A DNA stretch of 64,000 bases, taken from positions 62,001 through 126,000 of the forward strand of contig VEPM01000006.1 in NCBI GenBank assembly GCA_012026795.1, read 5' to 3'. Origin of the DNA: Candidatus Methanoperedens sp. (GTDB lineage Archaea > Halobacteriota > Methanosarcinia > Methanosarcinales > Methanoperedenaceae). The notes beneath the pieces are model-generated. The model ran no database searches, was not told the origin of the DNA, and saw nothing but the letters and a program-made list of their open reading frames with translations. Both the position numbers and the translations under genes were made by a program. Positions 29,197-42,430 of this stretch are shown here, piece by piece; within the stretch, counting starts at the first letter, position 1, and the number at the start of each line of letters is the position of its first letter.

Positions 29197-30458
29197 TTCA
29201 GGTTCCGTTGGTAAGCTTTTAAGGTTTTTTCTATGTCATCTTTTGAATGGGCGAGAGACAGGAAGTTTGTCTCAAACTGGGACGGGGGCAGGAAGATGCC
29301 GTCATTTAGCATTTTCTTGAAAAATACATTGAATTTGGCTGTATCGCATTTCAGGGCTTCCTGGTAATTAGAAGGCATATCCCCGAAGAATACCTTGAAC
29401 ATGCTCCCCACGCCGCTCACATTGTAATCAAGCCCGATATCGGTTATAATATCAGATAACCCTGACCTTAATGAATCTCCTGCGCTATTCACTTTGTCAT
29501 GTACTTTCTCTTTTTTAAGTGTTCTTATCATGGCAAGCCCTGCTGTCATTGAAACCGGGCTGCCATTGAATGTCCCTGCCTGGTAAACAGGACCAGCCGG
29601 TGAAATTTTCTCCATTATTTCACGCTTCCCTCCGATCACACCGATATGGAAACCGCCGCCAAGTATCTTTCCAAGAGTTGTCATGTCTGGCGTAATACCA
29701 TAATACTCCTGAGCACCACCCATGGCAAGCCTGAATCCTGTGATCACTTCATCTAAGATCAATACCACATCATTCTCTTTTGTTACTGCGCGGACATCTT
29801 CCAGGTACCCTTTTTTGGGTAATATCGGCCCGATATTTCCAAGTACGGGCTCCATAATTACTGCCGCAACATCATCTTTATACGCTTCAATCGCTTCTGT
29901 CATGGCCTCTATATCGTTATATGGCACCTGGAGCGTGTTCTTCGTAAAATCTTTCGGGACTCCGGCAGAATCGGGCGTGCCGAGGGTTGTTGCGCCTGAT
30001 CCCGCTTTTACAAGGGCAGCGTCGTGAGCGCCATGAAAGCCCCCTTCTATCTTGATGAACTTGTTTTTCCCTGTGAAACCCCTTGCTGCGCGCAGAGCTC
30101 CCATTGTAGCTTCTGTTCCTGTTGAGACAAATCGCACCATGTCGATGCTCCTGTATAGTTTGATAATTTCATTCGCAAGAGACACTTCAAGTTCGGTCGG
30201 GGTTCCGTAAAGCCAGCCATCATCAAGCTGCTTGGTCACAGCTTCCTTTATTGCAGGATGGTTATGGCCCAAAAGTAAAGGCCCGTAACCCATTACGTAA
30301 TCGATATATTCATTACCATCAATATCGGTTAACTTTGAGCCGTTCGCTCTTTTAGTATAGAACGGAAATGGTTTTATTGCCCTGACAGGGCTGCTTACGC
30401 CCCCGGGAAGTATCTTCTTCGCTTCATCGAATAATTTTCTTGATTTCTCTGTTCCCAT
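29193..30458 (-). CDS. hemL: Glutamate-1-semialdehyde 2,1-aminomutase
   Basis: HemL, 421 residues, PLP enzyme converting glutamate-1-semialdehyde to 5-aminolaevulinate in the C5 pathway. It shows [29 protein letters not shown]-like [38 protein letters not shown] (Asp for PLP) and the lysine in [14 protein letters not shown]. First gene of the leftward haem operon; the usual partners hemA and hemB are not in this window. A 130-base gap separates its start from the peroxidase gene upstream on the same strand. Confidence 0.97.
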
Positions 30459-30588
30459 GGATTACTCAAATTAGGGGATAAACTAATATAATTTGTGTTT
30501 ACTCTTGAATTCAGGTATTTTTTGTTAATCCGTTATCTGTGGCATACTTCATTAACTCGTACCAATCATTGGTAATCACTATTTCAGA

Positions 30589-32088
30589 CTAAAGCGTTCT
30601 CAAGAATGCCACAAGATCCTTTTTCTCATCCATAGTGAGCTGCAGCTCCTGGATCATGTTGAAGAATTCCACTGTGTCGTCCAGAGTCAGCAGCCTCCCG
30701 TCGTGGAAGTAAGGAGGAGTATCCTTGATGCCACGCAGGGGGAAAGTCTTGATCGGGCCGTCGGCGCTTGCCATCATCCCGTTGATCATACGGGGGTTGT
30801 AGAAGCGCTCCGTCTTCAGGTTATGCATGGTGAGATCTGTATAGTAGGGAGCAGGATGGCATTCAACGCATTTTGCCTTGCCAAAGAACAGTTCTTGTCC
30901 GCGCATTTCAGGCTCAGAAGACATATTCGGATCCAGCTTGCCATAAATATTAAGCTTTGGGGCGGGCGGGAAATCCAGAAGTTCCTGGAACTCAGCCATG
31001 AAATGAACCTGGCTGCTGCGTTCAAGCGGGTTGACGCCCTTCTTTGTTGCTATTACAGGATCACCATCAAAATAAGCCCCTCGCTGCTCGAACTCCGTGA
31101 AATCCTCTACAGTCTTCAGTGCACGCTGTGAGCCGAAAAGGCGCTGGATATTTAAGCCGCGCAGGGTCGGTGTATCAAGGCGATGGCGGAACTCCTGCGG
31201 CCGGATATCGCCCACCAGATGAGTGGCACCGTTTGTATTGCCATTTGCGTGGCAATCAAAACAGGCAACTCCGAGACTTGGGTGTTCAGAACGCCGGTCC
31301 TCGAGCAGATTGAATTGTTGCTGCGGGAATGGAGTCAAAAGCAACCGCAGGCCCTCAAGCTGTTTCGGATTTAATATTCCGTTAAACAGTTCAAAGTAGT
31401 TCCGGTTGGTCACCAGTTTGCCCCTGGAAACATCACCCAGGTCAGGCCGCGTAGTTAAATAGATAGGCGCGGGGAACTCGGGCAAAAAGCGATCCATCAA
31501 GTCGAAATCCAGGTCAAATCGTGTGAGGTCGCGCCCTTCTTGTTTCTTAATCTCATCGATTTCGAAACCGGGGAAGAGCTGGCCACCTTCAGAATGGTTT
31601 GGATGCGGCAACGGCAGGAAACCTTTGGGGAAGAGATCCTTCTGTCGAATTTCTTCCGGGCTCATCACAGCCAGTTTGTCCCAGGTCATGCCATCAGGAA
31701 GTTTAACCCTTACGCCTTCCTGAATGGGCTTTCCACGGGACATCGTTACATCTTTAGCCGGATGGTCGCTCAGATCGTAACGTTCATTGAGCAGATCCAA
31801 CTGGCGCTTCATCGTCTCAGACTTCGAAGCCTTATATCGAGCCATGATCGTATCGAAGTCCTCATTGATAACCACCGGTAGATAGCTTGAACGATTTATT
31901 AAAACATCAGTCGCTATATCAGGATTCTCATTTGTATCAGCATTTGAGTTTGCATTATCTATCCCGGTATCATTTGAATAATTCGAACTATCCATTCCCG
32001 ATTCCCCGGCATAGACAACTCCAAGCAATGCGAGTACTACAGCCAAAAACACCAGTGCCCATAGGTGTTTTGATATTCTTTGTCTCAT
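30589..32088 (-). CDS. Di-haem cytochrome c peroxidase-like protein
   Basis: Secreted or membrane-anchored c-type cytochrome of 499 residues with an N-terminal signal (HLWALVFLAVVLALLGVVYA). Two CxxCH haem sites are present: CFDCH (about residue 277) and CVECH (about 409), the spacing expected of the MauG/cytochrome c peroxidase family; KDTPPYFHDGRLLTLDD near the C-terminus is a further family motif. Function may be peroxide reduction with cytochrome electrons or a MauG-like oxidation. The first 120 residues, Asn/Ser/Asp-rich after the signal, are not typical. The gene sits just upstream of the haem operon on the same strand, fitting a cytochrome-rich organism. Confidence 0.88.
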   Translation of the reverse strand: MRQRISKHLWALVFLAVVLALLGVVYAGESGMDSSNYSNDTGIDNANSNADTNENPDIATDVLINRSSYLPVVINEDFDTIMARYKASKSETMKRQLDLLNERYDLSDHPAKDVTMSRGKPIQEGVRVKLPDGMTWDKLAVMSPEEIRQKDLFPKGFLPLPHPNHSEGGQLFPGFEIDEIKKQEGRDLTRFDLDFDLMDRFLPEFPAPIYLTTRPDLGDVSRGKLVTNRNYFELFNGILNPKQLEGLRLLLTPFPQQQFNLLEDRRSEHPSLGVACFDCHANGNTNGATHLVGDIRPQEFRHRLDTPTLRGLNIQRLFGSQRALKTVEDFTEFEQRGAYFDGDPVIATKKGVNPLERSSQVHFMAEFQELLDFPPAPKLNIYGKLDPNMSSEPEMRGQELFFGKAKCVECHPAPYYTDLTMHNLKTERFYNPRMINGMMASADGPIKTFPLRGIKDTPPYFHDGRLLTLDDTVEFFNMIQELQLTMDEKKDLVAFLRTL

Positions 32089-32374
32089 AATATTACCTCC
32101 CCTAAATTTTGACGAAATAAACCCGCATGTTGCAGCACCCCCATTTATGGAATTATATCTGCGATGCGGTATCTTTTTTTTGAATTGCGGAATAAAGAGC
32201 AGTGCTTGTAATTAAACTATTTACCGTCTCTTGATGCCCACACCCTTCAAACAATTTTTCGAGACGTTTTATCGTATTTGACAATTTATTGTTAATATTG
32301 GTATATATAACTACAGGGTGGTTATGGTGTAGCCCGACAAGCAGGCAACCAGTAAAAAAAACACGTAAGAATTC
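32089..32374. other. Intergenic: promoter region of the peroxidase gene
   Basis: 286 bases between the start of the peroxidase gene and the end of rqcH (both leftward). GGGAGGTAAT (minus strand, about 32093-32102) gives the peroxidase a good ribosome site. A TATA-like element (GTATATATAACTA, about 32300-32312, plus-strand reading) is present, but no gene is found in front of it. Nothing else identifiable. Confidence 0.5.
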
Positions 32375-34336
32375 TCACTCTTTTATCCTTGAGCTTCCCG
32401 GAGGCAAAAACATCGCTATCCTGTCAGGCGAAGCTATCGTCTTTATGAGCTTTTTATCTTCGAACTTTTCATTCAGCAAACGGTATATCTTCTTTGAAAT
32501 GTCGTTCTGGTTGAACTCACCAGGTTCAACCTCGATGACGAATTGCGCTGTTTTCTTTACGGCGCTCAAAGGTCCTCCGGTCAGCCTTTTTTCCTCGCCA
32601 AGTTCAAGACCAAGTGCTGCTCCCAGCATTACATCTTTGAAATAATTTCGCTTTCCCCTTATCACAAAAGCGCCTTTTGCCACATACTCGCCGGATTCAG
32701 GGGTTTTTGAGACCTGCTCAGGTAACACCCAGTAGGCATCCCCGCTTACCTGCCCTGATTTCCAGATGCCTGAATATGAAACAGTGAACTGCGCAGCTTC
32801 AAGAAGTGTGGTTTCAGGCACATCTTTTCCTTCTGTTTTGATTACAACAGCAGGAGAACCTGATACATGGGCATGGAAGAAAATATCCTTTTTCTGGAGG
32901 TATTTTTTCACGATATCCTCGTTGCTCTGGGCATCCCTTCCCCCGATAACAAGGAACCCATCTGATGAGAAAAACCACCTGAACTGCTCAAACCACTTTT
33001 GTTTTGGTTTCTGGATATTCTTACTGGTTTTGGGAGCTTCTTTTTTTCCTGCCAATTTCTTTGTATCTTCTATCGCGGCAAGAGCGCCTTTTATCTTACC
33101 CGATAATTTTTTTGATTTATCGTAATAAACCTGGGAATTCTGTGTTACAGTGAGACGTACATCGAGTTCTACTTCCTCATTATCCAGCAGCACATTGATC
33201 AGGCCTTTTCCCGGGTTAATGGATTTGATCACTTTTGCTTCAGGAATATCCGATTTTTTTAATATGTTCTTTATATCATCCCATGAATACCCTTTCTCCC
33301 TGGCATTATTGATGACCTTCAGGATCCCATCGCAGGTCTGGTAATGCGCATAAATCAATTCTCCTTTATGAACAAGCTTTTGCTCATCTTCCCTGAATTT
33401 TGCGAGCGCAAGTATCTGTTTCTGGAGTCGGTATTCGTATGAACTAGTTTTTTCTTCCTTTGCTGCTTTTACAACTTTAATGGCTTCGTTTTTCTTTTTT
33501 GCCTCGCTGCTGAAATATTCATCAAGTGCCTCATTAAAAGTACTAAAAGATATTTTCTCGTTTTTCTCGTAAACGGAAATAGGGAAAGGAAGCACGTCTA
33601 TTTTTACCCCATCTTTCAGGATTATCTGCGGTTTAAGCTCTGTGTTTAGCGGTTTGAAAACATCCTGTAACGCATTTTGTAATGAAGACAGGTCTTTTAT
33701 GTCCTTCGCCGGGGTATTTTTTGAGATGCCGGCGCGGATGCAAAGCTCTTCTGCGTACTGGCCTCCGATGTTCATTTTTGTTGCCACTGTACGAACGATG
33801 TCTGCATCGGAATGTGCGAACATCTCTTTTAGCTGGTCTTCTGTTGCAGTAATTGGACTGATCTGTGCCTGCGGCAGCTCATAAGGTTCGCCACCCCGGA
33901 CTTTCCTGTCCCTGAAGCTTATGGATTTTAATGGCAGTATTATCTGCTTTTCAGAATTTAATAAAACGATATTTCCTCTGGAAAATAGTTCTATTATGAG
34001 GATGGTCTTATCCTCGCCGCGCTGGATATGCATCTCAATTATCCTGTCAAAATCATACTGCGAAACATCTGTAATCCTGCCCCCGGTCAGGTGTTTCCGG
34101 AGAAGCATCGGGAATGACTGCGGGAACTTAGGAGCAATTTCGGGATATTTCGTTAGATGAAAGCGTTTTCCTGCTTCAATGACAAGATTTGTTCTCCCTT
34201 CTTTGAAAATATGTAGCCCGATCCTGATCTCATCCGGTGAATGCTGGTATATTTTTGTGATCTTGGCATCAAGAAGGCGGGGATGCAATTCCCTTACCAG
34301 TGCTGCAACGTCCACACTTGACATTTCCTGTTTCAT
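32375..34336 (-). CDS. rqcH: RqcH/NEMF (NFACT) ribosome quality-control protein
   Basis: NFACT-family protein of 653 residues, archaeal Rqc2/NEMF/RqcH homologue. It binds 60S/50S-peptidyl-tRNA complexes from stalled ribosomes and recruits tRNA for C-terminal tailing. The N-terminal NFACT-N domain is visible (VDVAALVRELHPRLLDAKIT; FHLTKYP), followed by a central coiled-coil stretch (ALDEYFSSEAKKKNEAIKV) and the C-terminal NFACT-R domain (WFFSSDGFLVIGGRDAQSN, KKDIFFHAHVSGSPAVVIK). Length and order are normal for archaea. It lies downstream of the TPR/ATPase pair, separated by a hairpin at 34377-34402. Confidence 0.93.
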   Translation of the reverse strand: MKQEMSSVDVAALVRELHPRLLDAKITKIYQHSPDEIRIGLHIFKEGRTNLVIEAGKRFHLTKYPEIAPKFPQSFPMLLRKHLTGGRITDVSQYDFDRIIEMHIQRGEDKTILIIELFSRGNIVLLNSEKQIILPLKSISFRDRKVRGGEPYELPQAQISPITATEDQLKEMFAHSDADIVRTVATKMNIGGQYAEELCIRAGISKNTPAKDIKDLSSLQNALQDVFKPLNTELKPQIILKDGVKIDVLPFPISVYEKNEKISFSTFNEALDEYFSSEAKKKNEAIKVVKAAKEEKTSSYEYRLQKQILALAKFREDEQKLVHKGELIYAHYQTCDGILKVINNAREKGYSWDDIKNILKKSDIPEAKVIKSINPGKGLINVLLDNEEVELDVRLTVTQNSQVYYDKSKKLSGKIKGALAAIEDTKKLAGKKEAPKTSKNIQKPKQKWFEQFRWFFSSDGFLVIGGRDAQSNEDIVKKYLQKKDIFFHAHVSGSPAVVIKTEGKDVPETTLLEAAQFTVSYSGIWKSGQVSGDAYWVLPEQVSKTPESGEYVAKGAFVIRGKRNYFKDVMLGAALGLELGEEKRLTGGPLSAVKKTAQFVIEVEPGEFNQNDISKKIYRLLNEKFEDKKLIKTIASPDRIAMFLPPGSSRIKE

Positions 34337-34376
34337 GTAAGGGGGCTATATGAAGGGGATGTTAATTTAAGCTTGT

Positions 34377-34402
34377 CATCAAAAATCTGCGGATTTTTGA
34401 TG
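34377..34402. terminator. Perfect 11-bp hairpin between TPR gene and rqcH
   Basis: CATCAAAAATC, loop TGCG, GATTTTTGATG: an 11-bp perfect stem with a four-base loop in the 82 bases between the stop of the TPR gene and the start of rqcH, both leftward. No T-run follows it on the minus strand, so it may end or stabilise the upstream transcript, or attenuate entry into rqcH. Confidence 0.5.
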
Positions 34403-34418
34403 TTTGTTGGGGCAATGA

Positions 34419-35909
34419 CTACAGGTGCATTTTCTTTATCTGATCTTTTGCTTTTCGGGCTTCATTTTCAAGTCCGATTTTCTCAAATATTTCGAGAGCT
34501 TTTTGTGTTGATTCAATTGCTTCTTCTTTTTTGCCCATCTGTGAATAAAGCAAACCCATCTGCGCAAAGGTATAGGCTAAACCGTGCAGGTCGCCGATTT
34601 TTTTATATACCTCTGTCGACTGGTTGTATTTCTCAAAAGCTTCATTGTATTCACCTTTATCTTGGTGAATCATTGCAATCATGTGGAGTGTTTGCGCTAT
34701 ACCTCGCTGGTCGCCGAGTTTTTTATCAATCTCCATAGACTGTTTGTACTCCTCAAGCGCCTCATCGTATTCACCTTTAATCTTGTGAATCGTTGCGATG
34801 TTGTGGAGTGTTTGGGCTATGCCCCGCTGATTGCCGAGTTTTTTATTAATCTCCATTGACTGTCTGTATTTCTCAAGCGCCTCATCATACTCCCCTTTTT
34901 TCTGGTGAATTACTGCAATGTTGTGGAGTGTTTGGGCTATCCCCCGCTGATCGCCGAGTTTTTTATCAATCTCCATAGACTGGTTGTATTTCTCAAGCGC
35001 CTCATTGTATTCACCTTTAGTCTGGTGAATCAATGCGATGTTGTTGAGTGCCAGCGCTAAACCTTCATGGTCACCGAATTTTTCGATTATCTCCATTAAC
35101 TGTTTGTACGTCTCAAGCGCTTCATCGTACTCACATTTATTCGCAAGAATTACTGCGATGTTGTTGAGATTAGCCGCTATGCCTTGTTGGTCGCCGAGTT
35201 TTTCATCAATCTCCAAAGACTGCTTGTACTTCTCAAGGGCCTCATCATATTCTCCCCTCAAATAATGAATCATACCTAATTTCAAATACCAATCTGCAAA
35301 TTTATAATCATCAACGATATTTTTATTTTTGTATTCTTCCAGTAGCTCTGAGTACTGCTTATATCGCTCATTTAATTCATCAACTGTCAGGTTTTCAAGC
35401 TCACTTTCAACAATCCTTTCTGTTTTTTCAAAAGGTTGAGTTGCTTTCTCCATCCTGAACTCAAAAACGGTAGTTCGCCAGCTCCAGAAATCCGGCGCCT
35501 CTATAGCGATTTTGCTTAATGTTGCTTCATTTGACCATATGATAACAGGCTGGTTAATGTTGGAAAATTCCTCCCTCATTATATTCAGTTTTGTTAAAAA
35601 TGCAGATTTACCGGATGAAGTAACAGCTTTTGAAGATTTTTCAATGCCATAAACAAAAATTGTAGCTTTGTTTTTCGTTGATGAAACTTTTTCCCTGATT
35701 TCATTTACTAAATCGCTGGAATTTTCGTCTAATTGAATGTTGATTATTTTTGTATTAAGGATTTCAAGCCTTTTTTCCAATTCATTGTATAATTCTGTCC
35801 TTAAAACCGGCTCATTGCAAAGTACAAATGCAATAGCTCCATCTTTTGAAAGAGTTATTAAGGTAACCAGTTCATCCAATTTGCTTAGTTGTTCTTGATT
35901 AAGTTCCAT
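34419..35909 (-). CDS. TPR protein with STAND-type accessory N-terminus
   Basis: A 496-residue protein in two parts. Residues 1-160 form an alpha-beta domain resembling an NTPase fold without a P-loop, ending APDFWSWRTTVFEF, a motif I associate with TPR/STAND proteins in archaea and cyanobacteria. Residues about 175-490 are six or more kinesin-light-chain-like TPR repeats of 40 residues (LHNIAVIHQKKGEYDEALEK, then SMEINKKLGNQRGIAQT), nearly identical, so a 120-base periodicity is obvious in the DNA. It starts one base after the stop of a P-loop ATPase gene, so the two products probably work together, ATPase plus TPR sensor. Function unknown. Confidence 0.75.
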   Translation of the reverse strand: MELNQEQLSKLDELVTLITLSKDGAIAFVLCNEPVLRTELYNELEKRLEILNTKIINIQLDENSSDLVNEIREKVSSTKNKATIFVYGIEKSSKAVTSSGKSAFLTKLNIMREEFSNINQPVIIWSNEATLSKIAIEAPDFWSWRTTVFEFRMEKATQPFEKTERIVESELENLTVDELNERYKQYSELLEEYKNKNIVDDYKFADWYLKLGMIHYLRGEYDEALEKYKQSLEIDEKLGDQQGIAANLNNIAVILANKCEYDEALETYKQLMEIIEKFGDHEGLALALNNIALIHQTKGEYNEALEKYNQSMEIDKKLGDQRGIAQTLHNIAVIHQKKGEYDEALEKYRQSMEINKKLGNQRGIAQTLHNIATIHKIKGEYDEALEEYKQSMEIDKKLGDQRGIAQTLHMIAMIHQDKGEYNEAFEKYNQSTEVYKKIGDLHGLAYTFAQMGLLYSQMGKKEEAIESTQKALEIFEKIGLENEARKAKDQIKKMHL

Positions 35910-35910
35910 T

Positions 35911-37164
35911 TTAGTCGCTGATTAATCCCTTTTCAGTTAACAATGATTTTACGATTGGATTTACATCGCACCAATCAGTATCATTCCTGTATTCCAGAAC
36001 ACTTAGATTGTGCAACAACCTGACAAGCCCCTGGTCCCTCTTTAATTCTTTGGAAGTATAAATGTCCTTCAATATTGTGTAATCTTCCTCGCTAATCTGT
36101 CCCCTGTACAGGTTCCTTATATCATTTACTACAGTAATTGCAATTTCTTTGTCTATCTTATTTTTCCCTCTGGTGATCGCCCTGATAGAAGAATCACGTA
36201 TTATTCTGATCAATTCCCTTACCAATCCACCGCTCATCCTGATAATATACTCCATTGCATCTTTTTCAATAAGTTCTAAAGGTGCTCTTCTACTTACAAC
36301 ATCTATCAAAATTTTTTCACCTTTCTTATATGTACTCCCATCCTTGTTCATGATTTTTACATTGGGATGCATACTGACTTTATCGAAATTTATAACTATC
36401 TGGCTGAACTTTTCATCATTTTTTAGTGCTATCGGGAATGTATAAATTATTTTTCCAAGCGGTTGGACCAATTGGGTTCCATGCTTATAAAAAATATCAA
36501 TAGCCTTAACCGGATCGGTTTTTTCAAGGTTATCAATAACTATCAATACCTGTTTATCCGTTGTTCTTTCGATTTCAGTAATTACATCATTAATTATGTT
36601 TATAAGTTCTGAAACTTTAGGTTCGATTTTATTACGGATCACTGTTTTTGAGCTTGTTTCAGTTTTGATTTTTTTCATTAAAGTCAGGAAAAGTATAGAT
36701 ATTTTCGCTGAAATTCCACCGCTGTCTGTCTCTTTATCAACTTCAATTTTCTCAATAGTGCTACCCCAGGTCATTATGCGATTTGAGAGCACCTCATTTA
36801 AATTAAGACCTTCATTATCTATTTTTTCCAGCATTTTTGATAACATTGAGAGAAGCACATCTGTGTAGGATATATCATTTATATCCATAATATCAAACGC
36901 TGAGTAATGAACGATAAAAAACCCATCACTTAATTTTGAGATTAACCTGTGGAGTGCCGTGGTTTTTCCAGAACCCCTATGCCCCGTAAATAATATTTTT
37001 ATCGGTTCTCTGGTTTTTAAACTTAACTCTAACCTTGTTTTTAATTCATTGATGTTTGATTCACTGTGTTCAATTTCAACATAGTATTTTTGAAAAAATT
37101 CTCTACTGAAAGTAGTTTTAGGATCAAATAAATAATAAACATCCTCCAGTGAAGTTCCAGGCAA
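35911..37164 (-). CDS. P-loop ATPase (STAND/AAA-like) paired with TPR protein
   Basis: A 417-residue ATPase. Walker A is FTGHRGSGKTTALHRL (about residues 58-73) and Walker B VLIVIDNLEKTDP (about 205-217); the C-terminal part (MSGGLVRELIRIIRDSSIRA, then a winged-helix-like tail) is typical of AAA/STAND ATPases such as ORC/Cdc6-like or KAP/NACHT relatives. There is no transmembrane helix. The sensor-type repeats normally fused to STAND ATPases are in the next gene, one base downstream. Both genes are AT-rich compared with rqcH. A regulatory or defence role is a guess from architecture. Confidence 0.72.
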   Translation of the reverse strand: MPGTSLEDVYYLFDPKTTFSREFFQKYYVEIEHSESNINELKTRLELSLKTREPIKILFTGHRGSGKTTALHRLISKLSDGFFIVHYSAFDIMDINDISYTDVLLSMLSKMLEKIDNEGLNLNEVLSNRIMTWGSTIEKIEVDKETDSGGISAKISILFLTLMKKIKTETSSKTVIRNKIEPKVSELINIINDVITEIERTTDKQVLIVIDNLEKTDPVKAIDIFYKHGTQLVQPLGKIIYTFPIALKNDEKFSQIVINFDKVSMHPNVKIMNKDGSTYKKGEKILIDVVSRRAPLELIEKDAMEYIIRMSGGLVRELIRIIRDSSIRAITRGKNKIDKEIAITVVNDIRNLYRGQISEEDYTILKDIYTSKELKRDQGLVRLLHNLSVLEYRNDTDWCDVNPIVKSLLTEKGLISD

Positions 37165-37242
37165 TTAAATCATCTCAACCTTAAAATAGTTAATTCAGTG
37201 TATTAATCTTTTGTAAAATTCTAATAATTAAACCGTTTCAAG

Positions 37243-37295
37243 AAATCGGTAATTTCAAATAACACTACTTAACATATCTCCATATATCAAGATCA
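37243..37295 (+). repeat. 53-bp dispersed repeat, copy 1
   Basis: This segment and 39121-39173 agree at 49 of 53 positions, sharing the core CTTAACATATCTCCATATAT. Copy 2 lies directly before the sulfite-oxidase-like gene and looks like its promoter; copy 1 lies in the gap right of ftsZ and points rightwards to a short unknown frame ending in a terminator. Confidence 0.8.
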
Positions 37296-37320
37296 GAGTA
37301 ATATCGCAATTGATCTTTTG

Positions 37321-37395
37321 ATGTTCTCGATTGGAGGAAGCGCCCATCTTGGCTCATATACAATAATTGACCGTCAAGATTGGAAGGTCCAATAG
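37321..37395 (+). CDS. Possible 24-aa micro-ORF
   Basis: ATG 37321 opens MFSIGGSAHLGSYTIIDRQD and stops at 37395. It follows a TATA-like CATATATCAA inside repeat copy 1 at a distance allowing a short leader and is followed by a terminator hairpin, so it may be the translated or residual part of a small transcript. I recognise no family. It may equally be the remnant of a longer gene. Confidence 0.25.
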   Translation: MFSIGGSAHLGSYTIIDRQDWKVQ

Positions 37396-37412
37396 AAATC
37401 TTGATTTTTTAT
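37374..37412 (+). terminator. Hairpin plus T-run on the plus strand
   Basis: TCAAGATT (37374-37381) pairs with AATCTTGA (37397-37404), with inner complement TTGGA/TCCAA, followed by TTTTTT (37405-37410). It reads as a rightward terminator and lies five bases from the ftsZ stop, so it would close a short plus-strand transcript from repeat copy 1. Confidence 0.6.
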
Positions 37413-37415
37413 TTA

Positions 37416-38465
37416 TCATACTGGAATGATTAGAGGATGGTAACGATCTGTTATTTCATTCTCACCTGCTTTCAATGTGGGGCTTTTGATCCCTGTGAGA
37501 ACCGCCATGATCCGCACTCTGCCAGTAAGAGAGCTGTCCACCCTGGCACCCCATAAAACTCGTTTGGTAGGCACTTTATCCAGGATACGCTCGCCCGCAA
37601 CTGCAACCTCTTCAAGTGTCATATCTTCACCGCCCGCGATATGGATCAATACACCATAAGTTGCTGAAATATCCGAGATATCTAGCAGGGGAACTGCCAG
37701 AGCATGACTGACTGCTTTAGTAATACGGTTTTCACCGTCGCCCTCACCTATACCTATAGCACCTATTCCTCCCTGCTCTGTCACGGTTCTCAGATCGGCA
37801 AAGTTGAGATTGACAATGCTTGGCTGAGTAATGGTTTCGGTAATATTCCTGACAAAATCCCCAACAAGGGCATTGGCAACTGACAGAGCATCGTTTAGAG
37901 GTAGGTCCCCGGCGATCTCACTGAGTTTGATGTTATCGATTACTATGGTAGAATCGCAACATTCTGTGAGAGCTTTTATCGCCTCCCTTGCCTTTTCCCT
38001 TCGCGCCGTCTCTAGCTTGAAAGGGATTGTTACACATGCGATGGTTAGTATTCCAAGTTCCCTTGCAACTCCCGCAACTACAGGTATTGCGCCTGAGCCA
38101 GTGCCTCCTCCCATTCCAGCTACCAGGAATAACAGGTTTACATCCTGAAGAACTGCCTTTATTTCAGGCAGATTTTCCTTGGTTGCCTCTGCTCCCATCT
38201 CAGGGGAGCCCCCGCATCCATACCCTTTGCATAATTTTTTTCCAAGCAAAATAAGCTTATCCGCCTTTCTTATCGTGGCAAGATGATTAATATCAGTATT
38301 AGCTGCTATGATTCTGCCACCTGCCATTCCCTTCTGTGAGATCCTCGTTATTATATTGCAGCCGGCACCCCCAAGACCTATTACCGCTATTGAGGGTTTT
38401 GCGGCTTTTACCATTTTACTTAAGTCAGCTGTCAAATTTGGTGCCTCTCTTTGTGCAATTAGCAA
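37416..38465 (-). CDS. ftsZ: FtsZ-family tubulin-like GTPase
   Basis: Tubulin/FtsZ GTPase of 349 residues. GTP-binding motifs are intact: IAVIGLGGAGCNII near the N-terminus, the tubulin signature GMGGGTGSGAIPVVAGVA and TIPFKLETARREKA. The T7 synergy loop reads VNLNFADLRTV, with Asn in place of the first of the two Asp residues (NxDxxD) that drive hydrolysis in canonical FtsZ. The protein ends soon after the core, without a long tail or obvious C-terminal binding peptide. The frame starts at TTG 38465; ATG 38414 (MVKAAKPS) is the conservative start and is close to the GTPase core. It would act at the division ring or in a regulatory or shape role as a paralogue. Confidence 0.88.
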   Translation of the reverse strand: MLIAQREAPNLTADLSKMVKAAKPSIAVIGLGGAGCNIITRISQKGMAGGRIIAANTDINHLATIRKADKLILLGKKLCKGYGCGGSPEMGAEATKENLPEIKAVLQDVNLLFLVAGMGGGTGSGAIPVVAGVARELGILTIACVTIPFKLETARREKAREAIKALTECCDSTIVIDNIKLSEIAGDLPLNDALSVANALVGDFVRNITETITQPSIVNLNFADLRTVTEQGGIGAIGIGEGDGENRITKAVSHALAVPLLDISDISATYGVLIHIAGGEDMTLEEVAVAGERILDKVPTKRVLWGARVDSSLTGRVRIMAVLTGIKSPTLKAGENEITDRYHPLIIPV

Positions 38466-38686
38466 AAAACGTTGCTACTCCCATATTGTCACCAATTCGT
38501 AACATGAAGCATCCAGTACTAAAACTTTGTTATGCGATTCTTTTTCGCTCTTGTTATGGGATTTAAGCAGTTTAGAGGGTTGGGGATTGATATGGTCTAC
38601 CCCTTGGCAAGCCATTTAAAACTTCTCTGCCCCAAACCTCAACCTGTTATTTTTTCACTACGATTGCACAGGTTTACATATTTCTC

Positions 38687-38842
38687 TCAATCGTATTGAG
38701 CACCACTTGGCTGTTCTGCCTTGCGTGCTCTCAGTTTTGCATAGAACTCTTTCTGTCTCTCTCGTTCGGCATCGGTGACTTCAGGTTTCTTCACTTTTTT
38801 AGCACCTTCTGCCAGGTCCATTGCGCTTTCCAGTCCGACCAT
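38687..38842 (-). CDS. Small charged protein, 51 aa, strong ribosome site
   Basis: A 51-residue frame starting MVGLESAMDLAEGAKKVKKP and ending QPSGAQYD, rich in Lys, Glu, Arg and Ala and predicted mainly helical. The reading frame is preceded by the best Shine-Dalgarno in this part of the window, GGAGGTG (38851-38857 on the minus strand), eight bases before ATG, so it is very likely translated. No cysteines, membrane helix or known domain. It precedes the ftsZ-family gene on the same strand with a 221-base gap, so they may or may not be co-transcribed. Function unknown. Confidence 0.75.
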   Translation of the reverse strand: MVGLESAMDLAEGAKKVKKPEVTDAERERQKEFYAKLRARKAEQPSGAQYD

Positions 38843-39120
38843 TGTTTTTCACCTCCTTTTTATTTAATTCATCATATTTATTCTACTATTTTCAACATGA
38901 TTTTTTCATTTGAAACTCCTCGTCGGGGGGTATTACAATAACCCTCCCTTTTCCCTTTTCCCTTTAACAATGACTTCCGATGGATTATAATTCTCTTGTA
39001 GTATAAATACCTGTTGCATTACTGAAATTATATTAAAAAGTAATTGTTTTCACAAATTAAATTTGACTTTGACGTTCAACGAATGGTATGCAGGACAGCG
39101 AAGATTCTTTCCGAATGAAA
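38843..39120. other. Intergenic region between 51-aa gene and SUOX-like gene
   Basis: Divergent promoter region. Minus strand: GGAGGTG ribosome site and AT-rich DNA before the 51-aa gene. CTCGTCGGGGGGTATT and the pyrimidine tract CCTCCCTTTTCCCTTTTCCC (38942-38961) stand out. AGTATAAATACC (about 39001-39012) is a good TATA-like box with no obvious gene directly behind it. No coding frame seen. Confidence 0.45.
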
Positions 39121-39173
39121 AAATCGGAAATTTCAAATAACATCACTTAACATATCTCCATATATCAAAATCA
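39121..39173 (+). repeat. 53-bp dispersed repeat, copy 2 (promoter of SUOX-like gene)
   Basis: Second copy of the repeat at 37243-37295, ending 15 bases before ATG 39189. It contains CCATATATCAAAATC, a TATA-like sequence about 30 bases before the start codon, so this copy probably drives a nearly leaderless mRNA. Confidence 0.75.
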
Positions 39174-39188
39174 TCCGGAGTCAAATCT

Positions 39189-39746
39189 ATGCCCCGTCTT
39201 CCCCCAAACCAGCGCCTGACAACAAATTTCCCTGTCCTTCATTTCGGAAAAGTACCGGAATTCGATAGCAAAACATGGGATTTCCATGTTGAAGGGCTTG
39301 TTGAAAATCCAGTAAAGCTGACATACGATGAGTTGCTCGCGCTTGAAAAAACAGTGGATGTCAGCGACTTTCATTGTGTGACAGGATGGAGTCGGTTTGA
39401 TAATAAATGGGAGGGCATTCGATTCAGTGACCTGGCAAAACTCGTAAGACCAAAAAGCAATGCGCGGTTCGCTACGATTGAGGCTGAGGGTGGATATACA
39501 ACCAGCCTTGCACTTTCTGAACTCATGCAGCCTGATGTCATTCTTGCATACAATTTTGATGGAAAGCCGCTTGAAGCATTGCACGGCGGGCCGCTTCGGC
39601 TTGTCGTCCCGAAAAAATACGCATACAAGTGCGCCAAATGGGTGAGGAAAATTGTGTTTACGGAAGAAAAGGACTTGGGTTTCTGGGAGCAAAGGGGTTA
39701 CAGCGACAGCGCAGACCCGTGGAAAGAGGAGAGGTATTCGTATTAG
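39189..39746 (+). CDS. Sulfite-oxidase-family molybdopterin protein
   Basis: Oxidoreductase molybdopterin-binding (SUOX-fold) protein of 185 residues. It shows WDFHVEGLVENPVKLTYDEL, the cofactor cysteine in FHCVTGWSRFDNKWEGI, and a C-terminal LHGGPLRLVVPKKYAYKCAK, all hallmarks of the MsrP/YedY-SUOX family. There is no Tat signal or dimerisation domain, so it is a minimal cytoplasmic form, as commonly seen in archaea; the substrate is unknown (methionine sulfoxide or sulfite are guesses). A CCGGAG ribosome site precedes the ATG. A single gene, bounded by a repeat-borne promoter and an intron-like region. Confidence 0.9.
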   Translation: MPRLPPNQRLTTNFPVLHFGKVPEFDSKTWDFHVEGLVENPVKLTYDELLALEKTVDVSDFHCVTGWSRFDNKWEGIRFSDLAKLVRPKSNARFATIEAEGGYTTSLALSELMQPDVILAYNFDGKPLEALHGGPLRLVVPKKYAYKCAKWVRKIVFTEEKDLGFWEQRGYSDSADPWKEERYSY

Positions 39747-39799
39747 TGCCAATCCGAAAAATCAATAAATAGTATATCTCCGAATGAATCACAGAGTGT

Positions 39800-40119
39800 T
39801 GATGGATATTCAGGCTTTACTTGCCTGTAAGGTTGATGTGGTTACAGAAAGGGGCTTACGACCCCGGAAGTGAGTCCAACGGGGTCTAAGACCGCAGCAT
39901 GATACCAAACGGGGACTATGGGAACCCGGGACCCGGTATGCTTTCCCGCAAGGAATATGCTATATCAAGCCTATGAACGGTAAGATACTGCAGATAGCAT
40001 ACTGGGAGTCGGATCAGTTCGTAGTACTGCTGAAGCAGGGTAATGCCTGTGGAGGGAAGGGACTGACAGAAGCACGATTGACATCAGGGGCACATCTGCC
40101 GCACTAGAGGTGGGAATAG
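39800..40119 (+). mobile_element. Group II intron-like RNA segment, truncated
   Basis: About 320 bases with no credible long ORF, GC-rich and full of short complementary blocks (GGGGCTTACGACCCC; GGGAACCCGGGACCCGG; GGTAATGCCTGTGGAGGG). GGAGTCGGATCAGTTCGTAG followed by TACTG, and GAGGTGGGAATAG just before an ATG, resemble the region upstream of the maturase gene in archaeal group II introns. No domain V hairpin or full reverse transcriptase is seen downstream, so this would be a 5' fragment. Recognition is from memory of such introns, not an alignment. An unrelated structured RNA is the alternative. Confidence 0.4.
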
Positions 40120-40467
40120 ATGACAACAGAACTGGTGTCTAAGACTCTACAAACTATACTTTGCGATAAAACCCGAAAAGGCAAATTCAAGCTTGGGCAT
40201 TACCAGTATTATGGAATGCGCGCGGATCGGATTATCCGTGTAAATGTTAAATTTCAAGTTCAGTACGGTCAACGAATAAGGGGTTTAGCTGCCTATTTGC
40301 ATGATTATCAGCTTATTCCCTATGATCGATGTTGTCAGTTATTAATGGATGTTTGTGGTTTTGAAAATGAAGCCAAAAAGTTATTGAGTCAATCTCCAGT
40401 TATCCATTTTGACCAATTTTTTAGGATGAACGGAATATGTTATGGGACAATTTGGGGGTCTGAATAG
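40120..40467 (+). pseudogene. Chimeric remnant: maturase-like start fused to IS66 transposase piece
   Basis: A 115-residue frame. The start MTTELVSKTLQTILCDKTRK, right behind the intron-like RNA, could be the first residues of a maturase. From about residue 45 the segment VQYGQRIRGLAAYLHDYQLI, continuing PYDRCCQLLMDVCG, closely resembles the middle of IS66-family transposases (VQYGPRIKALAVYL...). None of the transposase catalytic domain follows; after about 25 further residues the frame stops. Probably a decayed junction of two mobile elements; a real small protein is unlikely. Confidence 0.5.
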
Positions 40468-40538
40468 TCACATTTTTTTAATCTTATGATTTTTTTAATC
40501 CCAACATAATAAAAAGGTTCTGTTTTCATTTCGTTATA

Positions 40539-40554
40539 TATATAAGCTATAAAA
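40539..40554 (+). promoter_or_regulatory. TATA element of the sugar nucleotidyltransferase gene
   Basis: TATATAAGCTATAAAA, identical over 16 bases to the gyrB element at 9758-9773, lies 24-39 bases before ATG 40578, so the transcript has a very short leader. AGGGTGCC just before the ATG may serve as a ribosome site. Confidence 0.55.
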
Positions 40555-40577
40555 CCAATTCAAAGCAGGGTGCCTTA

Positions 40578-41753
40578 ATGAAAACATGTATAATGTGTGG
40601 TGGCGAGGGAACAAGGCTTCGTCCGCTTACTTTTGACCGGCCAAAGCCGATGATTCCGCTATTGAACAAACCATCTTTAGTTCATCTTGTGGAACATCTG
40701 GCTATTGAGGGTTTCAACGATATCGTGCTTACACTGGGTTATCTGGGTGGGGAAATTGAAGCCGCATTGGGAGATGGGAGTATGTACGGCGTGCATGTCG
40801 AATACGTCCATGAGCAGGAAAAACTGGGGACAGCAGGAGGAGTAAAGAACGCTGAAAAGCTGTTTGAAGGTGAGCCATTCATGGTAGTTGGAGGCGACCA
40901 CGTAATGGATCTTGAACTTCGCGAATTTGTCCGTTTCCATGAAAAAAACGATTCACCTGTTACAATAGGCCTTATTCCGATCGATGATCCGCGCGATTAT
41001 GGTATAGCGGATCTTGATGTTAATAACAGGATCAACAGGTTTTTTGAAAAACCGGGGCCTGGAGAGATATTTAGCAATCTTGCAAGTACCGGTATTTACG
41101 TTTGTGACCCGGAGATAATGAAATGGATCCCTCAAAAGAAATACGATTTTGCAAAAGACCTTTTCCCGGATATTATGAAAAAAGGTGAGAACATCAATGG
41201 TTTCCTTGTGCACGGCAAGTGGACGGATATCGGGAACCCGCAGGCTTACAGGGAAGCATGCAGATGGATGCTGGAACAGATGCCGGGCACAAAAATTTCA
41301 GGAAGACTGAATATCAAAGATGCAAGAGTAACAGGGCCAATTGAAATAGGGCATGATGTGTCGCTCGGTTCAAATTCCTCCATTGTAGGCCCTATAGTGA
41401 TCGGGGAAAACACAATTATCGGGGATAATGTCCTGATAGGCCCCTACACATCGATAGGCTCAAACTGCAAAATCGGAAATAATTCAAGGATACTCTCTTC
41501 ATATATATTTAATGGTGTTGAGATCGGCGCAAATACTGCGGTTTCCAGCGCTATTATTGATAATTCTACCAGGATAAAAGATTCGTGTATACTCGAAACA
41601 GGTACTGTTATCGGCCCCAGAGTTATTATCGGGGAAGAAGTGACGGTAAATTCAATGGTCAGGGTATGGCCTGAAGTCAGGGTAAAAAATGGAACTAAAG
41701 TAGACGAGAACCTCGGGAATGAGGATTTTGGAAATAATATTAAGGGTTCCTAA
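40578..41753 (+). CDS. Nucleotide-sugar pyrophosphorylase (NTP-transferase + hexapeptide repeats)
   Basis: Sugar-1-phosphate nucleotidyltransferase of 391 residues. The N-terminal catalytic domain begins with [20 protein letters not shown] (NTP-binding G-x-G-T-R-x-x-P-x-T...K) and includes [12 protein letters not shown] with the metal-binding Asp; [20 protein letters not shown] is the sugar-binding end. Residues about 250-370 form a left-handed beta-helix of hexapeptide repeats ([20 protein letters not shown]). Archaeal members make GDP-mannose, UDP-GlcNAc or dTDP-glucose; I cannot tell which. Useful for surface glycans. It converges on rpiA, overlapping its stop by four bases. Confidence 0.9.
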
Positions 41754-42430
41754 GTCTCTATTATTTTCACAGTCCCGTCTTTTTTCCCGATATATACTAC
41801 ATCTACATTTGTGAATATACCATGTTCCACAATTCCTGTGCAATACGAAAGCTCTTTATTTAATGATACAGGGTCATTGATTTTCCCGAAATCCGCATCC
41901 ATTATGAAATTCCCGTTATCCGAGATGACCGGGCCATCCTTATTGACGCCCATACGTACCTGCGTTTTTCCATCGAGTTTTGCCACATTCTTTTCAACGA
42001 GTTTGCGCGCCGCTGGTATGACTTCAAGTGGAACCGGATGACTCAGCACATCAGCCATTTTTGATTCATCAACGATTACAACGAACTTTTTTGCGGATTC
42101 AGCAACAATTTTTTCACGTGTATGCGCTGCTCCGCCGCCTTTAATCGCTATGAAATTTGCGACCTGGTCCGCGCCATCAATATCAATATCAAGAACAGGA
42201 TGCTCATCAAGCGTAGTGAGCTGGATACCGTTCTCAGTTGCCAGAAATGCCGACTGGTATGACGTGGGGACACCAAGGATATCCAGGCCATCGGCAACGC
42301 GTCTTCCCAGTTCTTTTATCGCATAGGCAGTTGTGGAGCCTGTACCAAGCCCCACTATCATATTGTTTTTTACAAGCCGGGCTGCATGTTCTCCGACGGC
42401 CTGCTTGGGATTTTGAGTGCAATTTTTCAT
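41750..42430 (-). CDS. rpiA: Ribose-5-phosphate isomerase A
   Basis: RpiA, 226 residues, interconverts ribose-5-phosphate and ribulose-5-phosphate. Motifs are [16 protein letters not shown] (phosphate binding), DIDGADQV and [12 protein letters not shown] (catalytic Asp/Glu/Lys region). ATG 42430 ([10 protein letters not shown]) is chosen; the open frame runs back to 42487 but these extra residues ([12 protein letters not shown]) overlap the upstream promoter of tsr3 and do not look like the family. Divergent from tsr3, convergent with the nucleotidyltransferase gene. Confidence 0.95.

Follow-up and report, generated by a model that had tools for sequence, protein, structure and literature searches.

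A conserved ATPase-TPR gene pair in a Candidatus Methanoperedens genome that resembles a split STAND system

The stretch of DNA analysed here, referred to as the window, comprises 64,000 nucleotides of contig VEPM01000006.1 of Candidatus Methanoperedens sp. (assembly GCA_012026795.1). The host genome is archaeal, has 3.59 Mb in 68 contigs, and holds a single copy each of an ATPase gene and a TPR-protein gene. As had been predicted, the ORF list and the sequence place the two ORFs on the same strand, one base (35910) apart. The features of the locus, in window positions, are:

34419..35909, minus strand: TPR-protein gene, 496 aa (ORF; Pfam TPR_12, 5.2e-56; AF2 pLDDT 90.6)
34422..35315, minus strand: TPR array and C-terminal cap, residues 199-496, seven in-phase 40-residue units (repeat analysis and model)
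35448..35909, minus strand: N-terminal alpha/beta domain (N-domain) without a P-loop, residues 1-154 (alignment, and fold order in the model)
35910..35910, no strand: the single intergenic base between the ATPase and TPR ORFs
35911..37164, minus strand: ATPase gene, 417 aa, TTG start (ORF call), with a predicted AAA+/STAND-type core (approximately residues 30-275), a helical lid, then a C-terminal winged helix (AF2 model)
35932..36090, minus strand: predicted winged-helix region, ATPase residues ~359-411 (order of elements in the model)
36520..36549, minus strand: Walker B-like strand and the residues after it, 206-215, ending DNLEK (alignment and model)
36961..36984, minus strand: Walker A motif GHRGSGKT, residues 61-68 (sequence and alignment)
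37240..37295, plus strand: 56-base stretch upstream of the ATPase gene, 91% repeated at 39118-39173; the deletion junction in a close relative (G018) matches both copies

The pair had been described as AT-rich against its neighbours. This holds for the ATPase gene (33.5% GC) and for the N-domain and linker (33.8%), but not for the TPR part (41.0%; whole window, 41.7%). The low GC of the pair is not extreme within the window, because two of the 37 ORFs of at least 200 aa have lower GC than the ATPase gene, and five, the ATPase gene included, have lower GC than the TPR gene. Between positions 30000 and 42000 the neighbours, as read from their translations, include FtsZ-like, RqcH-like and heme genes. 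The FtsZ-like gene (37416-38465) adjoins the pair and seems to belong to a large family, with 4 to 11 matches per genome in 31 genomes of the genus and ten in that of the window. There were no Rfam matches in 34000-39500; a promoter scan was at chance (12 versus 11.0 expected), and a terminator scan gave five candidates versus 1.6 expected, all five on the opposite strand.

Judged by its AF2 model (pLDDT 92.4, pTM 0.90), the 417-aa protein is an AAA+ ATPase of the STAND/ORC type, with a confidently predicted fold. In an alignment of 63 sequences, G64 and G66 are invariant and K67 and T69 are present at 90% or more; D211, on the modelled beta strand 205-211, is invariant in 33 sequences. When the 1000 best Foldseek chains for the model were re-examined with VIA-align, matches spanned Z 13.4-17.2 and included TnsC (Z 17.2, 3.8 A, 290 residues aligned), Drosophila ORC (Z 16.8, 3.2 A, 247), archaeal Cdc6/Orc1 (Z 16.2, 4.5 A, 262), the archaeal ATPase 2qen (Z 15.4, 4.6 A, 299), CED-4 (Z 14.6, 4.7 A, 281) and the plant NLR RPP1 (Z 13.4, 4.5 A, 274), together with 2fna. 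The alignments extend to model residues 410-417 on CED-4, 2qen, 2fna and NLR chains. Residues ~359-411 are modelled in the order helix-helix-strand-strand-helix, and the sequence alignment keeps LLHNLS..EY.N..W.D.HP; from the order of elements and the Orc1, TnsC and CED-4 matches we read this region as a predicted winged helix. Sequence families match more weakly. The window ATPase has only weak Pfam matches (AAA_16, 3.8e-5; DAP3, 23.0 bits versus a cut-off of 23.1), KAP_NTPase is absent from those listed, and the NCBIfam model ATPase_Sll1717 reaches 32 bits against a cut-off of 75. Among relatives, KAP_NTPase matches 26 of 33 ATPases (best 1e-11) and ATPase_Sll1717 matches 34 of 63 (best 1e-12), and likeness to these two families consists of such weak matches over the P-loop half.

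Across one genome per species in 84,980 species, at least 376 relatives were confirmed, the best 80 of which were kept. Among the matches listed are Methanosarcinales, Methanophagales, Altiarchaeota, Chloroflexi, cyanobacteria, Acidobacteria, Proteobacteria, Desulfobacterales, Brocadiaceae, Clostridia and others. We found that a gene with the N-domain lies directly 3' of the ATPase, on the same strand, in 126 of the 138 ATPase ORFs of at least 300 aa at the scanned loci, which span archaea, cyanobacteria, Chloroflexi and other groups, and overlaps it in 86 of these 126; some contigs are present twice in this count, and distinct pairs number 112. The 12 exceptions are three cuts by contig ends, one fusion, three cases with 80-266 bases left, three in which inspection revealed an N-domain, and two without any on inspection, both from one Thermoflexus lineage. 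In 24 genomes picked for holding the ATPase, the partner lies downstream of 57 of 62 ATPases and upstream of none, a count that leaves out 18 ATPase rows with E between 1e-7 and 1e-3. Among 119 relatives, the window genome included, 34 have both genes, four the ATPase alone, five the partner alone and 76 neither (P = 5e-20 by Fisher's test, kinship ignored and four ATPase matches of E 3e-4 to 8e-4 left out).

The pairing of the two genes is thus real and conserved, and near-obligate for the ATPase. The partner can exist alone, as indicated by the five partner-only relatives (two of them with an internal stop) and by the 20 of 77 N-domain places that are unpaired in the 24 ATPase-holding genomes. 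The frames with internal stops (G105:C1 and G114:C24, loci L110 and L109), which lack an ATPase match, are probably remnants. In relatives from the same taxonomic order, a second N-domain gene lies either 5' of the ATPase gene or next to the existing N-domain gene (L063:4219-4953, L066:8667-9761). In one case, an archaeal relative from the same taxonomic order, the ATPase and partner form a single ORF of 860 aa (L098:659-3241, minus strand). Sensor repeats share the NTPase chain in L098 alone, and in the window they are on the neighbouring gene; the window ATPase carries the AAA+ core with Walker A and B and, in the predicted model, a C-terminal winged helix. The two proteins also diverge together: distance matrices correlate at r = 0.86 over 112 pairs, a value inflated by shared descent, and at r = 0.93 (P = 0.0008) over eight paralogous pairs of one Nostoc genome (Nostoc sp. 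FACHB-110). The latter cannot be explained by species history, as the paralogues lie inside a single genome; cyanobacterial genomes hold up to 10 paralogues.

In the AF2 model of the 496-aa partner, the alpha/beta domain is followed by TPR units. The array DNA has a period of 120 with 5.5 copies and 78% matches. Five units are 68-86% identical to one another and 49-53% identical to the last one; the repeats had been called near-identical in DNA, and are similar (49-86%) instead. Structural matches of the TPR half by VIA-align are of the LGN type, with Z up to 31.6, and also include kinesin light chain and the Rap/NprR sensors. Proteins of these kinds recognise peptides or protein partners. Three close orthologues of the TPR protein are 496, 456 and 416 aa long, in steps of one whole 40-residue unit, with seven units in the window, six in genome G011 and five in G009. 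DNA identity to the window in G011 and G009, respectively, is 89% and 85% for the N-domain, 86% and 81% for the partner tail, and 76% and 67% for the central TPR units, which within one species are 77-83% identical; for the ATPase it is 92% (partial gene) and 83%. The central units are closer within than between species, which indicates that the array gains, loses or homogenises repeats more quickly than the other parts change. The fast repeat change that had been proposed is therefore upheld, by the whole-unit length steps and the lower identity of units between species. Taken overall, the observation in the original prediction is confirmed in part.

The sensor-like tail itself is exchangeable. 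All 40 archaeal partners scanned, that of the window included, match TPR models, and TPR is the usual tail; elsewhere we found NB-ARC with TPR (L121, L149), NACHT/NPHP3-like with TPR (L229), WD40 (L228, L231, L233), CHAT (L166) and ParB_N with HTH_ParB (L160), all from partners picked for non-TPR or long regions, so that these cases give no estimate of frequency. The 897-aa partner of a GoM-Arc1 archaeon (L133:9720-10895, plus strand) has a tail of ~390 residues with no Pfam match at 0.05. No GT4 or HEPN domain was found among the 40 whole archaeal partners (in the 25 of 119 families listed), 10 selected segments and 10 selected tails, where TPR-rich output may mask others, and no effector or toxic domain was found in the window pair.

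The history of the locus includes loss. A pair of some subfamily is present in 10 of 31 genomes of the genus. In the nearest relatives by RqcH identity (G018, 96%; G021, 95%), what remains beside RqcH is just the 3'-terminal part of the TPR gene: the last ~32 codons, in the same place, in G018, and ~80 codons, adjoining a putative transposase gene (read from sequence), in G021. This indicates that the pair was formerly there and was then lost, and we reject the view that it was inserted here recently. Part of the stretch matching window positions 39118-39745 is present a second time nearby in G018 (L268, G018:C5, 9175-10909). G009 and G011 both carry the pair on one contig and the RqcH gene on another. 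Horizontal transfer of the window pair was also considered and is unproven, as ATPase identity to these two genomes (85 and 92%, in that order) is too near the values for the RqcH-like (78 and 77), TyrRS-like (88 and 88) and HemL-like (88 and 86) genes. In a tree of the ATPases, Archaea and Bacteria are intermixed, with six changes, at least four of them forced by starred branches, and the branches are long.

Our preferred reading, to which we give a probability of about 0.6, is that the ATPase and its partner are the two parts of a single STAND-like signalling switch. Residues 1-154 of the partner carry no P-loop, as had been predicted; the alignment shows conserved motifs LN..RE and APDFW..R..V..F, and there is no Pfam family common to the domain among 61 members. 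The models of the N-domain and of the ATPase core, compared by eye, have the same order, alphaN-b1-a1-b2-a2-b3-a3-b4-a4-b5, and hhalign pairs b3 of the N-domain with the Walker B strand and b4 with the strand that follows. The profile match itself falls short of significance (P = 0.0095, probability 4.3%; P = 0.099 after removal of the helical insert of the N-domain). In the rows listed, Foldseek and VIA searches gave TPR proteins alone and so barely probe the fold of the N-domain. The N-domain may be a dead NTPase core, a suggestion kept tentative by the non-significant profile comparison. The non-significant match, and the N-domain genes that occur alone, would also suit an unrelated adaptor whose gene merely shares an operon with the ATPase. 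We consider this quite unlikely given the identical order of helices and strands, the placement of b3 and b4, the natural fusion and the co-divergence inside one genome. As a description of build, the predicted split STAND system stands, with a STAND/ORC fold, a near-obligate downstream partner, a fusion, and NACHT, NB-ARC and WD40 partners; the P-loop-less domain may be a dead STAND module, the hhalign match being non-significant. The interpretation is partly supported.

What such a switch might serve can be considered from its surroundings. The original prediction was to fail if orthologues were mainly in housekeeping contexts or did not co-occur; co-occurrence is strong (34 of 119 with both), and contexts are mostly ordinary genes. 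Such contexts accord with a regulatory or chromosome-associated switch, in which an ORC/TnsC-like ATPase would act on DNA by its winged helix and the TPR partner would couple it to a cellular signal. The top structural matches are to the DNA-binding TnsC and Orc1/Cdc6, one partner ends in ParB_N and HTH_ParB, and operons of Chloroflexi put the pair beside a histidine kinase, a response regulator and an MraZ-like gene (names read from sequence). We nevertheless regard this reading as unlikely, as the KAP, NACHT and DAP3-like matches and the NACHT, WD40 and CHAT partners indicate STAND signalling, and patchy presence speaks against a core role. At four Chloroflexi loci (L160, L168, L177, L185) the operon-like run consists of the pair, a second N-domain gene, and putative histidine kinase, LuxR-type regulator and MraZ-like genes. 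MoxR-like and DUF58-like genes ~4 kb from one pair (L084:15730-17684) and a magnesium-chelatase-like gene just upstream of another (L069:7198-9252), both read from sequence, are inconstant associations. Defence against viruses, in which the array would recognise a viral protein and the ATPase would oligomerise to cause abortive infection through an effector elsewhere, by analogy with Avs and NLR proteins, is possible for the pair, although we would put it somewhat on the improbable side. It would fit the STAND fold, the patchy presence in the genus, loss through distinct events in its two closest relatives, rapid repeat turnover, the CHAT fusion and the many cyanobacterial paralogues (up to 10), and Hachiman HamA and HamB lie near one pair and an HmaA/DrmD-type SNF2 helicase near another. 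Against it, the pair has no toxic domain, no relative was found in IMG/VR viral contigs, and no strong system-specific match was found in PADLOC-DB 2.0.0 (best for the ATPase 3.9e-4, to mad8; none for the N-domain); the TPR protein matched TPR models (2.5e-32), then TmtA (1.6e-8) and PDC-S39 (2.5e-5), over the TPR part. Of the 202 non-redundant archaeal ORFs lying at most four genes from a pair, we scanned 145 (PADLOC, 1e-15). Matches fell in 79 families, with one member shown for each, and nearly all those listed were redundant models of few proteins; with 25 of the 79 families listed, the matched proteins are a lower bound. Ten neighbour ORFs scanned singly gave HamA, HamB, the SNF2 helicase and a cysteine desulfurase (a likely false positive), and six had no match; strong placed matches thus amount to two real loci and the desulfurase. 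One homing-endonuclease match was unplaced. A control set of 141 ORFs, drawn from relatives and the window genome in 20 arbitrary regions, matched three families. The proposed survey for defence islands therefore shows no clear excess near archaeal pairs (145 versus 141 control ORFs).

Returning to the STAND-like switch, we compared the pair with known systems. Single-chain STAND proteins (Avs, bacterial NACHT proteins, CED-4/APAF-1, MalT) have an AAA+ core, a winged helix and a TPR or WD40 sensor. The pair has the same parts, but here the switch and the sensor are encoded separately, and the gene for the sensor adds its own P-loop-less domain. The nearest described kind, going by its description, appears to be nSTAND2. 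As described (Kaur et al. 2021, eLife 10:e70394, PMC8195603), nSTAND2 is a predicted two-gene operon of an active STAND-type ATPase close to DAP3/RNA12 and a partner that lacks NTP-binding motifs and carries variable modules, most commonly GT4 and HEPN; both proteins are reported as STAND, with an arginine finger. The pair resembles this description in its STAND-type ATPase, in a partner with variable modules and no NTP-binding motifs, and in its conserved two-gene operon (126 of 138; 57 of 62). It differs from what is described there in its tails (TPR, WD40, NACHT/NB-ARC, CHAT or ParB), in a partner that shares the fold order by eye with a non-significant hhalign match, and in the prominence of archaea. 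The iSTAND and iSTAND2 MoxR-vWA ternary systems, as far as the available parts of their descriptions go (Kaur et al. 2020, 2021; PMC7159879, PMC8195603), likewise associate an inactive NTPase-like domain with sensor function next to an active AAA+ protein, but comprise three genes rather than two, and MoxR and vWA are absent beside the window pair (30000-42000, as read from the translations). Weak NCBIfam matches suggested DS-8, which we rejected as a metallophosphatase-NACHT single protein different from the pair, and also name DS-41, mentioned in the same source (PMC13092281, available portion). In the literature searched, which took in a minority of subscription journals and included the accessible parts of PMC10907252 and PMC12988326, we found no account of this pair.

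The likely mechanism is that the two proteins act as a physical complex. The 417-aa protein would be the nucleotide switch, by its AAA+/STAND core and winged helix, and the P-loop-less alpha/beta domain of the 496-aa protein would dock on it. The TPR array would bind a protein or peptide ligand, and this binding would alter the docked state, leading to nucleotide exchange and oligomerisation of the ATPase and to a signal passed onward. As the window pair has no effector domain, output would run either by way of the winged helix acting on DNA or by way of a further protein.

A broader reading, which we hold tentatively and at somewhat short of even odds, is that the family is a widespread, undescribed split STAND system, from methane-oxidising archaea to cyanobacteria, in which the ATPase and a pseudo-NTPase docking domain, both constant, would form a shared engine for plug-in sensors (TPR, WD40, NACHT) and sometimes for outputs (CHAT, ParB). 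STAND proteins govern cell death and immunity across life and have nearly always been studied as single chains. With switch and sensor as separate genes, ligand binding, docking and nucleotide exchange could each be assayed on purified components. Because cyanobacteria amenable to culture and mutation commonly carry the pair, its function could be tested despite the hard-to-handle archaeal host. Archaeal signalling of the STAND kind has so far been poorly described.
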